Assembly: GCA_905234175.1 (NCBI GenBank)
Contig: CAJOGX010000014.1
Span: forward strand, 1 to 42,923
DNA length: 42,923 bases
Direction of reading: 5' to 3'
Source: an uncultured Selenomonadaceae bacterium
GTDB lineage: Bacteria > Bacillota > Negativicutes > Selenomonadales > Selenomonadaceae
Below the pieces are notes generated by a model. That model had not been told where the DNA came from and searched no databases. It saw nothing but the letters and a program-made list of their open reading frames with translations. Position numbers and translations under genes: made by a program. Numbering within the stretch: position 1 is the stretch's first letter; each line of letters starts with the position of its first letter. Of this stretch, positions 32,707-35,230 are shown piece after piece.

Positions 32707-32783
32707 TTTTATAATAGGAGCAACGCTCCTGCTCGTCGCCTTGCAGGATGCGCGTGAAAGTCGAATAAAAAATCGAAAAAAAA

Positions 32784-32887
32784 GGCCGCCATGGACGGCG
32801 ACCGTGCCGCGTGTAGGTCGCCGGAAGCGACCTCCCCACGCGGCGTTTTTCTTTGCCAGCGTTTCTTTTTTAAAAAAGAAATGCTGG
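32784..32887 (-). repeat. Three-hairpin dispersed element, copy A
   Basis: In minus-strand order: hairpin 1, CCAGC + ATTTCTTTTTT pairing with its complement around one A-C mismatch (32887-32856); hairpin 2, an outer stem GCCGCGTG/CACGCGGC (32844-32837 with 32813-32806) and inner stem AGGTCGC/GCGACCT around a 5-nt loop; hairpin 3, GGTCGCC/GGCGGCC (32803-32784). It lies in the 190-nt gap between the convergent potD and deacetylase genes. A second copy at 35128-35230, reversed, aligns along its whole length. Read on the plus strand, hairpin 2 is followed by GTTTTTCTTT and may terminate potABCD. Confidence 0.8.
32806..32855 (+). terminator. Probable terminator of potABCD (hairpin 2 of repeat copy A)
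   Basis: GCCGCGTG (32806-32813) pairs with CACGCGGC (32837-32844), enclosing a second 7-bp stem (AGGTCGC with GCGACCT), followed by GTTTTTCTTT. It lies 100 nt after potD. The neighbouring palindrome at 32856-32887 could serve the opposite direction for the deacetylase gene. Confidence 0.55.
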
Positions 32888-32896
32888 AACCGTAAC

Positions 32897-33802
32897 TCAC
32901 CAGGGCTGCGGCGTCATAGGCGTAACGACGCCGAATTTGTAGCCTTTATTCCTTAGCAAATCTATAAGCGCGGGCAGAGCCTTAGCGGTTTCTTCCTTGC
33001 CCGCCTTGGAATGCATAAGCACAATGAGCGTGTTCGGCTGATAATCCCTGAGCTGCTTAACGATATTGTCAATCTGCGCGGAGGCGTTGGGCACGCTGGC
33101 GGTGGCGTCTTCGGTGCTGGCGTTCCAGTCGTATTCCGCGTAGCCGCACGAATCAACCATCGCCCAGTAATCGTTATTAAAAACTCCGGCAGTCCCGCCA
33201 GGCGCGCGGATAATCAGCGGGCGGACGCCGATAGTTTCCTTTATAATTTCGTCAGTCTTAATGAACTGGTCGGCGAAATCCCACGGCGAGCGGTAAAGTT
33301 CGCTGTAAACGTGATTGTAGCTGTGGTTGCCGATAGCGTGCCCTTCGTCGAAAATGCGCTCGAGGACGCTGGGATTTTTCTCAACCATATTGCCGAGCAC
33401 GAAGAAAGTTGCGTGGACGCCTTCCGCCCTGAGAATGTCGAGAATTTGCGGCGTAACTATATCGTCGGGGCCGTCGTCAAACGTCAGGTAAGCGACTTTT
33501 TCCGCGCGGTACGGTTCAATTTCCGGCAGAGCGACACTCAAGCCCTTAGCCTCGCGCTCAGCAACTTCGTACTTATCGTAAACCGGCTTGTCAACTTCGG
33601 CGAGCTGCAGGTTGGAAAATTTTTCGTCAGCCACGACGTAATTTTCCGGCTCGTGCTCAAAAAAACTCTCTCCGACAACTTCCGGAAACTTAATTTGCGC
33701 TGCCGCCGTATGAGAGGAATCGCCATCGCCGCCAACGCTGCTGTACCCTCCAAACAAACTAACCGCCGCTATCAGCAGTATTAAGCAAAGTATTCTTTTC
33801 AT
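32897..33802 (-). CDS. Polysaccharide deacetylase (NodB-like)
   Basis: Secreted or membrane-anchored carbohydrate esterase family 4 enzyme, 301 residues, probably removing N-acetyl groups from peptidoglycan or a surface polysaccharide. An N-terminal hydrophobic signal (ILCLILLIAAVSLFGG) precedes a ~85-residue linker. The NodB domain has motif 1 YLTFDDGPDD, motif 2 NHSYNH and motif 3 IIRAPGG; the catalytic Asp and both metal His are present, and LIVLMHSKAG supplies the last motif. ATG 33802 is preceded by GGAGG at 5 nt; ATG 33814 is the alternative. The signal would be a lipobox if Tyr in LFGGYSS were Cys, one base away. It is transcribed alone, convergent with potD. Confidence 0.88.
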   Translation of the reverse strand: MKRILCLILLIAAVSLFGGYSSVGGDGDSSHTAAAQIKFPEVVGESFFEHEPENYVVADEKFSNLQLAEVDKPVYDKYEVAEREAKGLSVALPEIEPYRAEKVAYLTFDDGPDDIVTPQILDILRAEGVHATFFVLGNMVEKNPSVLERIFDEGHAIGNHSYNHVYSELYRSPWDFADQFIKTDEIIKETIGVRPLIIRAPGGTAGVFNNDYWAMVDSCGYAEYDWNASTEDATASVPNASAQIDNIVKQLRDYQPNTLIVLMHSKAGKEETAKALPALIDLLRNKGYKFGVVTPMTPQPW

Positions 33803-33851
33803 AGCGTCCTCCATTTCCCTAAGAATGAAACTTATCTGGAATTCTTAGCAT

Positions 33852-33880
33852 AATATACAGCAAAATTTCATAATAATCAA
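33852..33880 (-). promoter_or_regulatory. Possible promoter of the deacetylase gene
   Basis: On the minus strand TTGATT (33880-33875) and TATATT (33857-33852) are 17 nt apart, giving a leader of roughly 45 nt. The region is AT-rich, so chance matches are likely. Confidence 0.4.
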
Positions 33881-33935
33881 GCCCCGCTGAAAAAAATTTT
33901 TCCCGTATAATTGTCAAAAAATTTTCAAAAGGCAG

Positions 33936-33965
33936 TTGCAAGTTTTGTAGAAGGTGTGGTAAAAT
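33936..33965 (+). promoter_or_regulatory. Promoter of the fructose-bisphosphate aldolase gene
   Basis: TTGCAA (33936-33941) and TAAAAT (33960-33965) are separated by 18 nt. The transcript would start near 33972 and include the hairpin at 33981-33994. Confidence 0.6.
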
Positions 33966-33980
33966 ATATTTGTCATTAAG

Positions 33981-33994
33981 GGAGCGCAAGCTCC
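33981..33994 (+). promoter_or_regulatory. GNRA-loop hairpin in the fba leader
   Basis: GGAGC-GCAA-GCTCC forms a 5-bp stem closed by a GCAA tetraloop near the 5' end of the predicted mRNA. Such 5' hairpins can protect mRNA from decay. The ribosome site GGGAGG follows about 25 nt later, so translation should not be blocked. Confidence 0.4.
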
Positions 33995-34033
33995 AGGAAA
34001 AATTTGTGTTAGATTTTTGGGAGGTAATGTCAA

Positions 34034-35032
34034 ATGCCATTGATTAAGACCACAGCCATGTTCAAAAAAGCCTATGAGGGCGGATTCGCGATTGGCGCTT
34101 TTAACGTCAACAACATGGAAATCGTGCAGGGTATCACGGGCGCGGCGGCTGAGCTCAATTCGCCGGTAATTCTCCAGTGCTCCGCTGGCGCAAGAAAATA
34201 CGCCAATTCCCGCTACCTCGTTCATCTCGTCCGTGCGGCTCTCGAAGTCAGCGACATTCCGATTGCTCTGCACCTTGACCACGGCCCCGACTACGCAACC
34301 TGCAAATCCTGCATTGACGACGGCTTCACGTCCGTTATGTTCGACGGCTCGCACTATCCCTTCAAAGAAAACATCGAGAAGACCAAGGAAGTTGTCGAAT
34401 ACGCGCACGCCCACAACGTCGTTGTTGAGGCTGAGCTCGGCCAGCTCGCCGGCGTCGAAGATGACGTAAACGTTTCCGCTGAGCACGCTCACTACACCAA
34501 ACCCGAAGAAGTAGAAGAATTTGTCAGCAAGACCGGCTGCGACTCTCTGGCTATCGCTATCGGCACCAGCCACGGCGCATTCAAATTCAAGCCCGAACAG
34601 TGCACCCGCAATCCCGAAACCGGCGTTCTTGAGCCTCCTTCCCTCCGCTTTGACGTTCTCGCTGAAATCGAAAAGAAAATTCCTGGCTTCCCGATCGTTC
34701 TCCACGGCGCGTCTTCCGTTATTCCGAAGTACGTCAAAATCATCAATGACAACGGCGGCAAACTCGATGACGCTATCGGCATTCCCGAAGACCAGCTCCG
34801 CAAAGCGGCGAAATCTGCTGTCTGCAAGATTAACATCGACTCCGACCTCCGCCTCGCTATGACTGCCGGTATCCGCGAACACTTTATGCAGCACCCTGAA
34901 CACTTCGATCCTCGTCAGTACATCGCTCCTGGCCGCGACTACATCAAGGAACTCGTTATCCACAAGATTAAGACCGTTCTCGGCTCCGAAAACAGCGCGC
35001 CTGGTATCATGGCTCTGGTCAACGAGTATTAA
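34034..35032 (+). CDS. fba: Class II fructose-1,6-bisphosphate aldolase
   Basis: Glycolytic zinc aldolase that cleaves fructose 1,6-bisphosphate to dihydroxyacetone phosphate and glyceraldehyde 3-phosphate; 332 residues. Zinc and active-site motifs are ALHLDHGPD (catalytic Asp, zinc His) and EAELGQLAGVEDD; IGTSHGAFKF and VLHGASSV supply the other ligands and the phosphate loop. ATG 34034 follows GGGAGG. Codon use is highly biased, as expected for an abundant enzyme. The gene has its own promoter and a terminator at 35075 and is not part of an operon. Confidence 0.95.
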   Translation: MPLIKTTAMFKKAYEGGFAIGAFNVNNMEIVQGITGAAAELNSPVILQCSAGARKYANSRYLVHLVRAALEVSDIPIALHLDHGPDYATCKSCIDDGFTSVMFDGSHYPFKENIEKTKEVVEYAHAHNVVVEAELGQLAGVEDDVNVSAEHAHYTKPEEVEEFVSKTGCDSLAIAIGTSHGAFKFKPEQCTRNPETGVLEPPSLRFDVLAEIEKKIPGFPIVLHGASSVIPKYVKIINDNGGKLDDAIGIPEDQLRKAAKSAVCKINIDSDLRLAMTAGIREHFMQHPEHFDPRQYIAPGRDYIKELVIHKIKTVLGSENSAPGIMALVNEY

Positions 35033-35053
35033 TTCATCTACGAAAAAATTTTT

Positions 35054-35071
35054 CGCCGTATCGTTACGGCG
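35054..35071 (+). other. Perfect hairpin after fba
   Basis: CGCCGTA-TCGT-TACGGCG forms a 7-bp perfect stem right before the main terminator. It has no T tract of its own and may protect the 3' end of the mRNA. Confidence 0.45.
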
Positions 35072-35074
35072 CTC

Positions 35075-35110
35075 AAATCCTCGGCTGATTCCTGTCGGTC
35101 GGGGATTTTT
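35075..35110 (+). terminator. Rho-independent terminator of fba
   Basis: A 14-bp stem (35075-35088 with 35095-35108, including a few G-U pairs) around TTCCTG ends in TTTTT. It begins 42 nt after the fba stop. Confidence 0.85.
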
Positions 35111-35127
35111 GAGTTTTAGCGTTCTAC

Positions 35128-35230
35128 GGCATTTCTTTCTGGTGCAGAAAGAAACGCCTGGCAAAGAAAGACAGCCGCAAGAGGTCACATCCGGTGACCT
35201 ATTGCGGCGGCGCCCCATCCTTGGGGCGCC
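35128..35230 (+). repeat. Three-hairpin dispersed element, copy B
   Basis: Plus-strand order: hairpin 1, GGCATTTCTTTCTG (35128-35141) with CAGAAAGAAACGCC (35145-35158), one A-C mismatch at the same place as in copy A; hairpin 2, outer stem GCCGCAA/TTGCGGC (35174-35180, 35202-35208) and inner stem AGGTCAC/GTGACCT (35182-35188, 35194-35200); hairpin 3, GGCGCCCC/GGGGCGCC (35209-35216, 35223-35230). It fills the gap between the fba terminator and addA. Stems differ from copy A by paired changes that keep the structure. Confidence 0.8.

Follow-up and report, generated by a model that had tools for sequence, protein, structure and literature searches.

We analysed a stretch of 42,923 nucleotides (nt) from an uncultured Selenomonadaceae bacterium (contig CAJOGX010000014.1 of assembly GCA_905234175.1; hereafter the window), which is one contig of a 1.99 Mb draft genome that is 82% complete, and in it two copies, A and B, of an intergenic repeat element whose first hairpin is followed by a further strand that changes in step with it. 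Copy A lies 3' of a polysaccharide-deacetylase gene, its hairpin starting 9 nt past the stop codon, and copy B lies between fba and an addA-like gene (UvrD helicase with PD-(D/E)XK nuclease); Pfam supports the names of all three genes. An initial annotation of the window placed copy A at 32887-32784 on the minus strand and copy B at 35128-35230 on the plus strand, with three hairpins in each, and both points are confirmed: the z-scores are −6.0 to −8.2 for both copies on both strands, and none of 200 dinucleotide shuffles was equally stable. What that annotation overlooked is the third strand within TGGCAAAGAAA, which covaries with the hairpin, along with the number of further copies in the genome and the modular make-up of their tails. 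The parts are as follows, on the strand referred to below as the listed strand:

32784..32887, minus: full extent of copy A, downstream of the polysaccharide-deacetylase gene (32897-33814, minus)
32856..32887, minus: copy A head hairpin (S1), CCAGCATTTCTTTTTT / AAAAAAGAAACGCTGG, with a single A-C mismatch
32846..32854, minus: copy A third strand AAAGAAAAA, a parallel-register match to the hairpin's TTTCTTTTT, 9 triplets
32806..32844, minus: copy A hairpin 2, GCCGCGTG..AGGTCGC-TTCCG-GCGACCT..CACGCGGC; loop on the opposite strand CGGAA
32784..32803, minus: copy A hairpin 3, loop GTCCAT (ATGGAC on the opposite strand)
32776..32783, minus: run of 8 T after hairpin 3 of copy A, intrinsic-terminator-like
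35075..35108, plus: separate terminator-like hairpin of fba, upstream of copy B
35128..35230, plus: full extent of copy B, flanked on one side by the terminator-like hairpin of fba (34034-35032, plus) and on the other by the addA-like gene
35128..35158, plus: copy B head hairpin (S1), GGCATTTCTTTCTG..CAGAAAGAAACGCC, A-C mismatch as in copy A
35163..35172, plus: copy B third strand AAAGAAAGAC, matching TTTCTTTCTG in parallel register over 9 purine triplets, after which C stands opposite G
35174..35208, plus: copy B hairpin 2, GCCGCAA..AGGTCAC-ATCCG-GTGACCT..TTGCGGC; loop on the opposite strand CGGAT
35209..35230, plus: copy B hairpin 3, GGCGCCCC-ATCCTT-GGGGCGCC, opposite-strand loop AAGGAT; TCTTCTTCC comes next

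The most surprising result of the analysis is the covariation among three strands in heads of this kind (type i), which have the form GCATTTCTTT-loop-AAAGAAACGCN1-3GC-AAAGAAA. After the TTTCTTT...AAAGAAA hairpin and a linker (7 nt from purine arm to third strand in 32 copies, 8 nt in 46), a second AAAGAAA run follows that tracks the hairpin in both length and sequence. Its register is parallel to the pyrimidine arm, with T matched by A and C by G against that arm, i.e. the run mirrors the purine arm. These counts refer to 78 copies, the set left after the outer frames of tandem heads had been removed (an earlier set of 80 rows included one such frame, a T/G exception). The seven bases left free after the linker read AAAGAAA in 77 copies and AAAAAAA in one (L014); the first level beyond these seven agrees in all 78 (46 C/G, 32 T/A), an outcome seen in 0 of 1000 shuffles. 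Counting the first seven, the triplets number 8 in 25 copies, 9 in 41 and 10-14 in 12; 77 of the 78 copies have 8-14 consecutive T.A/C.G-matched triplets, the exception again being L014, with A for G at level 4. Examples of matched strands are TTTCTTTCTTTTTG with AAAGAAAGAAAAAC (L305) and TTTCTTTTCTTTTTG with AAAGAAAAGAAAAAC (L060). When 59 unique heads were shuffled within genome groups, the mean extension of the third strand, 3.10, fell to 1.47 (maximum 2.00, 0/1000).

We infer that this covariation is the signature of an intrastrand triple helix: the listed strand would form an intrastrand triplex of class II (purine motif) and its complement one of class IV (pyrimidine motif). According to PMC4666352, RNA contains intrastrand triplexes of the pyrimidine type, whereas the purine motif cannot occur in it. 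Ordinary template switching is not expected to give a mirror copy, and an antiparallel alternative pairing leaves the flanking base unexplained. Strict pairing between the end of the loop (X) and the bases past the third strand (X') is absent from type i heads (0.83 vs. 0.98 shuffled), and their loose antiparallel score exceeds that of shuffles (2.76 vs. 2.34, 0/1000), as expected if CTG/CAG-like loops recur. Triple-stranded genomic structure is usually argued from composition; here the third strand changes in step with the hairpin over many copies, which is evolutionary evidence of use.

A second version of the head (type ii) has the form GTTACTTTCTTT-X-AAAGAAAGTAACC-AAAGAAAG-X', in which X and X' pair as a pseudoknot. 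Its core, AAAGAAAGTAACCAAAGAAAG, occurs in at least 120 stretches of genome contigs, and the carriers among the matches listed are Caballeronia, Lysobacter, Luteimonas, Xanthomonas, Silvimonas, Thiobacillus, Marinobacterium, Chitinophaga, Saprospiraceae, Nitrospirae, Lentisphaeria and rumen Selenomonads. All 15 genomes chosen for holding the head pattern contain it in 1-64 copies (64 in Caballeronia, 63 in Silvimonas, 50 in Lysobacter enzymogenes, 49 in Chitinophaga), and a reversed-pattern control gave 0 in all 15. In 74 unique heads from loci L101-L180, mostly from other bacteria and some from Selenomonads, the third strand shows no extension (parallel score 0.34 vs. 0.27; 91 of 1000 shuffles reach 0.34), and X and X' are reverse-complementary (4.00 vs. 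2.38, maximum 2.76, 0/1000). A second set, also of 74 unique type ii heads (loci of the host genus together with L181-L220 of other bacteria), exceeded shuffles on both scores: 0.77 vs. 0.39 in parallel and 3.15 vs. 1.79 in strict antiparallel register (0/1000 each). For a model of a 12 bp stem plus a 5 bp pseudoknot helix we selected 54 distinct type ii heads with an 8-nt loop and a 6-nt linker; double-changed cells numbered 89 vs. 43 ± 4 in shuffles (0/500; slid versions at most 28), the covariation score was 0.201 vs. 0.072 (0/500; slid versions at most 0.060), and the pseudoknot helix was paired in 79% of cells. Both head solutions lay the same strand along the same stem, and the two types are probably homologous, since they share sequence and type ii heads occur inside the host genus. 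That unrelated phyla carry this head in tens of copies suggests a mobilising system not yet described.

The two elements of the window are members of a dispersed, site-polymorphic repeat family under selection. The search for more copies that had been proposed with the initial annotation was made with a covariance model of the head (R1) built from 14 copies, and it was productive: 45 matches at E ≤ 3e-4 lie at distinct places in the host genome, and 39 of 66 genomes of the genus have at least one. At E ≤ 10 the host genome gave 95 rows. Beyond the first 45, most are the same places matched again on the opposite strand, and five of the weaker ones are, by eye, further genuine copies; a regular expression found 48 distinct copies in the fetched host loci. 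The host genome holds roughly 50 copies. Across the family Selenomonadaceae 43 of 189 genomes match, i.e. the 39 in the genus and, weakly, 4 of 123 outside it, with matches per genome ranging from 1 to at least 32-33. In Rfam the window gave 0 matches at the gathering score, and eight loci with type ii heads gave five matches up to E = 5, all under the gathering score (best E 0.34). Four 16-20-mers from the element occurred in none of 5.39 million papers, a collection without most of the subscription literature, and no description of such a repeat family was found beyond the paper on intrastrand triplexes.

The copies share the head and carry modular tails of two main kinds, the commonest being two GC hairpins. 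Selection on pairing, which the initial annotation had proposed from two copies, is strongly supported: the compensatory differences in hairpin 2 are genuine and are seen again in further copies, and 299 of 308 stem pairs of hairpin 3 are Watson-Crick (44 unique hairpins from genus loci, each with at least 5 of 7 pairs matched). The A-C mismatch of hairpin 1 is invariant, occurring in 57 of 57 unique type i heads. Hairpin 3 is present in 61 of 67 heads of genomes G000 and G078, with 20 distinct left arms among the 61. The second kind of tail is longer, ~110 nt, and reads GCCCGTCA...TGACGGGC (L003-L006); in these loci and in L279 a type i head is joined to a GCCCGTCAGGATTTTTCGCGTTCAGC...TGACGGGC tail, often with T after it. 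Most of the host's type ii heads among L084-L090 and L092-L095 have a conserved TTTGTGCC-like stretch upstream, possibly the true 5' end of that sub-type.

Related genomes differ in what they carry at the same site. The fba gene was found in 59 of 66 genus genomes, and among 30 loci fetched for comparison an intact head pattern lies downstream of fba in three (G000, G078, G091) and a broken head, seen by eye, in G084. The fba-addA site is occupied by copy B in G000, by a different element with another head type plus a tail remnant in G078 and by yet another element in G091, and is without an element in G088; each insertion is located past the terminator-like hairpin of fba. The arrangement of copies A and B as a pair around the deacetylase-fba region, as first annotated, therefore dissolves into chance proximity of independent copies, the fba site of relatives having a different element or none. 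At a second site (C4:82052) there is one copy in G000, a nested double in G078 and no element in G089, G091, G088 and G062. At the 3' end of one gene the element has one orientation in G000 and G084 and the opposite one in G089 and G091. Comparison of G088 with G091 at the fba site suggests insertion with a duplication of 1 nt at most (a single filled/empty pair, by eye). Orthologous sites without the element thus exist, as expected of a miniature inverted-repeat transposable element (MITE) or other mobile repeat, in a comparison without tree polarisation. In a separate observation by eye, a complete element in L052/L275 (G078:C16:453120) lies within a broken older one, with the old head upstream and the old terminal hairpin downstream, i.e. 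a nested insertion.

The placement of the copies points to the 3' ends of genes. A gene was called on each side of 44 of the 48 host copies; 31 of these 44 follow a same-strand gene, the head starting 4-31 nt past the stop codon in 26 of the 31, and 19 of the 44 lie between convergent genes. In G000 and G078, 35 of 61 copies have at least five T in the eight bases after hairpin 3. Part of the copies, among them copy A with its 8 T, resemble an intrinsic terminator, with a GC hairpin and T run 3' of a gene. A bidirectional transcription end module, one of the possibilities raised at the outset, is hence borne out in part only, by the position just past stop codons and by a terminal hairpin often followed by a T run. 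Copy B lies downstream of the hairpin that could terminate fba, so that the end of fba does not depend on it.

We consider these elements most probably a non-autonomous interspersed repeat family that is mobilised in trans and used as a 3'-end module, with a probability of about 0.55. Some trans-acting enzyme would spread the family, and sites would differ through gain by transposition and not repeated loss; the three-strand head would be a recognition mark during spread, most likely as single-stranded DNA; and landed copies lacking another terminator would be retained for their ability to end the upstream mRNA through hairpin 3 and the T after it. Copy A would then end the deacetylase transcript, and copy B would be redundant. 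Such a role, if true, would show repeats turned into transcription punctuation.

Several points weigh against this proposal. The argument for the triple helix is one of covariation, and DNA as the acting molecule is a guess, an opposite-strand RNA fitting the covariation equally well; two of the five covariation measures of the 54-head model do not exceed shuffles (6 vs. 5.2 pairs with double change; 18 vs. 16.7 further pair types). The host gene calls are crude (our own calling of open reading frames (ORFs) of at least 100 amino acids), 26 of the 61 copies in G000 and G078 have fewer than five T in eight after hairpin 3, and heads in loci from other bacteria have no orientation bias relative to neighbouring genes. 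Only one filled/empty pair is fairly clean, and the element ends and target duplications are not sharp; the short stretch that G089 has at the fba-addA site may be a deletion scar, and element-free sites could be losses, because the comparison used no tree. The search for a mobilising gene is also unfavourable: the Y1 transposase (PF01797) matched in 7 of 66 genus genomes and in none of the seven copy-rich ones (G000, G062, G078, G080, G088, G089, G091; 80-99% complete), just 1 of 26 Y1 loci contains a head, and no convincing recurrent protein family was found beside heads. Among the neighbouring ORFs, the largest cluster (8 ORFs, six groups) and the third consist, in the members checked, of ORFs that cross the repeat; both scanned members of the second cluster (7 ORFs, five groups) are ABC-transporter ATPases, and its recurrence was taken as chance.

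Among the known systems with which the family could be identified, repetitive extragenic palindromic (REP) sequences and REPINs, moved by Y1 tyrosine transposases (REP-associated tyrosine transposases, RAYT), are also short palindromic extragenic repeats in tens of copies with some inverted pairs (PMC2817692). Y1 matches occur in two genus genomes with 9-10 head matches (G059, G084) and in 6 of 8 genomes of other phyla, but Y1 was not found in the seven copy-rich genus genomes, in Chitinophaga (49 copies) or in Silvimonas (63), and the Y1 genes found are not flanked by heads. Judged against the REP examples of PMC2817692, a GTAG-like tetranucleotide 5' of a short palindrome is absent from type i heads and GTAG occurs in some type ii heads only (L091, L095); a three-strand head is a further difference. 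We regard this explanation as highly improbable, and Y1 mobilisation is disfavoured for the copy-rich genomes. The initial suggestion of a REP/MITE-like mobile repeat is supported in part, through dispersed copies, sites that lack the element or hold a different or inverted one, and a nested copy. An intrastrand triplex motif related to replication or instability, with no other role, like BoxC/PIT/TMECO (Holder 2015, PMC4666352), is very unlikely. There too one strand has the order pyrimidine arm, purine arm, purine third strand, and dispersed intergenic copies vary strongly in number between relatives. At the level of sequence, type i heads have the order and the antiparallel purine-motif register of class II intrastrand triplexes (ITxF/PIT), with a linker of 7-8 nt that lies outside the ITxF loop range of 1-6 nt and inside the older Hoyne range of 0-10 nt quoted in PMC4666352. 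TMECO, however, is G/C-rich (CCCTCNCCC..) and was reported from proteobacterial genomes, and the BoxC/TMECO pattern CCCTCNCCC N3-6 GGGNGAGGG N3 GGGNGAGGG does not describe the A/T-rich TTTCTTT/AAAGAAA head found here; the present family also has a register shown by covariation, a length of ~105 nt or more, attached and conserved GC hairpins, a terminator-like end past stop codons, and a pseudoknot version in other phyla. We class it among interspersed palindromic/intrastrand-triplex repeats, outside BoxC and REP/RAYT. Intrinsic or bidirectional terminators that evolved in the host and were copied by recombination without being mobile are quite unlikely as well: the convergent and same-strand gene contexts and the frequent T run fit them, whereas element-free sites, inverted and nested copies and the patchy distribution do not, copy B comes after another terminator-like hairpin, and a plain terminator requires neither a third strand nor a head shared across phyla.

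The acting molecule could instead be an RNA of the opposite strand. Two GGA-loop hairpins in it (a C-ANGGAY-G hexaloop and an NGGAW pentaloop) would bind CsrA, and the pseudoknot or triple helix after them, containing U.A-U triples, would stabilise the RNA; the repeats would then be dispersed CsrA decoys or CsrA-responsive parts of 3' untranslated regions. We consider this unlikely. On the opposite strand hairpin 3 has an ANGGA(Y) hexaloop (position 2 T, A or C; position 6 C or T, with one A), and a search without loop constraint gave 86 hairpins 42-100 nt after 119 genus heads (33 heads gave none), 77 of them with ANGGA and thus variable at the N positions of the CsrA/RsmA consensus ANGGAN (PMC3791407); the consensus from in vitro selection (SELEX) is RUACARGGAUGU (PMC7652899). 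The loop of the last hairpin is a predicted CsrA-like site. Opposite-strand GGA is also present in 57 of 77 hairpin-2 loops, but 17 of the 77 are GTGAT without it. Of 83 heads from genome contigs, 14 have a hairpin of the ANGGA kind (RTCC loop on the listed strand) in the 300 nt downstream (7/7 Selenomonad, 7/13 gammaproteobacterial; control windows 3/108 in Selenomonads and 0/158 in the four gammaproteobacterial groups with the hairpin), and three further heads have it on the other strand. None of 33 Caballeronia heads has it, nor does any other head from outside the Selenomonads and gammaproteobacteria; the loop could be conserved through common descent alone. Of the 66 genus genomes 59 encode CsrA, which is equally frequent in those without elements. 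In CsrB and RsmZ (PMC3791407, PMC7652899) similar hexaloops occur, and hairpin 2 of RsmZ has an AAGGAU loop on a G-rich stem where copy B carries AAGGAT on a GC-rich one; unlike them, the present elements have two such hairpins each, not many, and no promoter was seen. Opposite-strand promoters are not enriched (7.69 vs. 7.62 shuffled, 119 flanks). Triple-helix pseudoknots occur in telomerase RNA, SAM-II and MALAT1, and the opposite strand would resemble them in having a U-rich loop, interrupted by a single C, that runs parallel to a stem strand rich in A; the present family differs from them as a bacterial repeat family lacking an Rfam match at the gathering score.

The strand of action, which the initial annotation had put opposite to the listed one, is backed by the mismatches of hairpin 1: the A-C of type i heads already described, and 20 A-C vs. 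2 G-T on the listed strand in the stems of the 54 type ii heads. The pseudoknot helix does not favour that strand (on the listed strand G-T occurs 14 times and A-C 6 times, where shuffling predicts ~16.5 of each), and the T run on the listed strand and the promoter result also speak against it; neither wobble test is decisive, because every varying pair has one arm that is conserved in its own right. A wider proposal, which we offer tentatively and rate as rather unlikely, is that one three-stranded fold underlies a repeat family of Firmicutes, Proteobacteria and Bacteroidetes. Either a long triple helix would maintain this fold, or a pseudoknot would do so by placing the same AAAGAAA/UUUCUUU strand along the stem; with CsrA-binding hexaloops in some lineages, the family would be a mobile module rewiring 3' ends and CsrA traffic.

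Heads in other bacteria showed further features. In Caballeronia/Burkholderia, heads occur in inverted pairs ~450-540 bp apart around a partly palindromic stretch (L101, L102, L116, L126, L128, L147, L151, L158, L172); inspection of these intervals by eye for a gene gave no consistent ORF. Proteobacterial copies (L106, L112, L132, L160, L164 and others) have, by eye, an extra tail motif RAACTCG...(stem)...CTCARACA downstream of the head. At L160:3380-3460 a BoxC-like CCCTCTCCC...GGGAGAGGG repeat lies between two inverted heads and is the source of most plasmid matches among the matches listed. Carriage of type i heads by viruses was set aside after a search with one type i core pattern gave 0 matches in viral contigs; the type ii core occurs in 12 viral-contig stretches (L260-L271).

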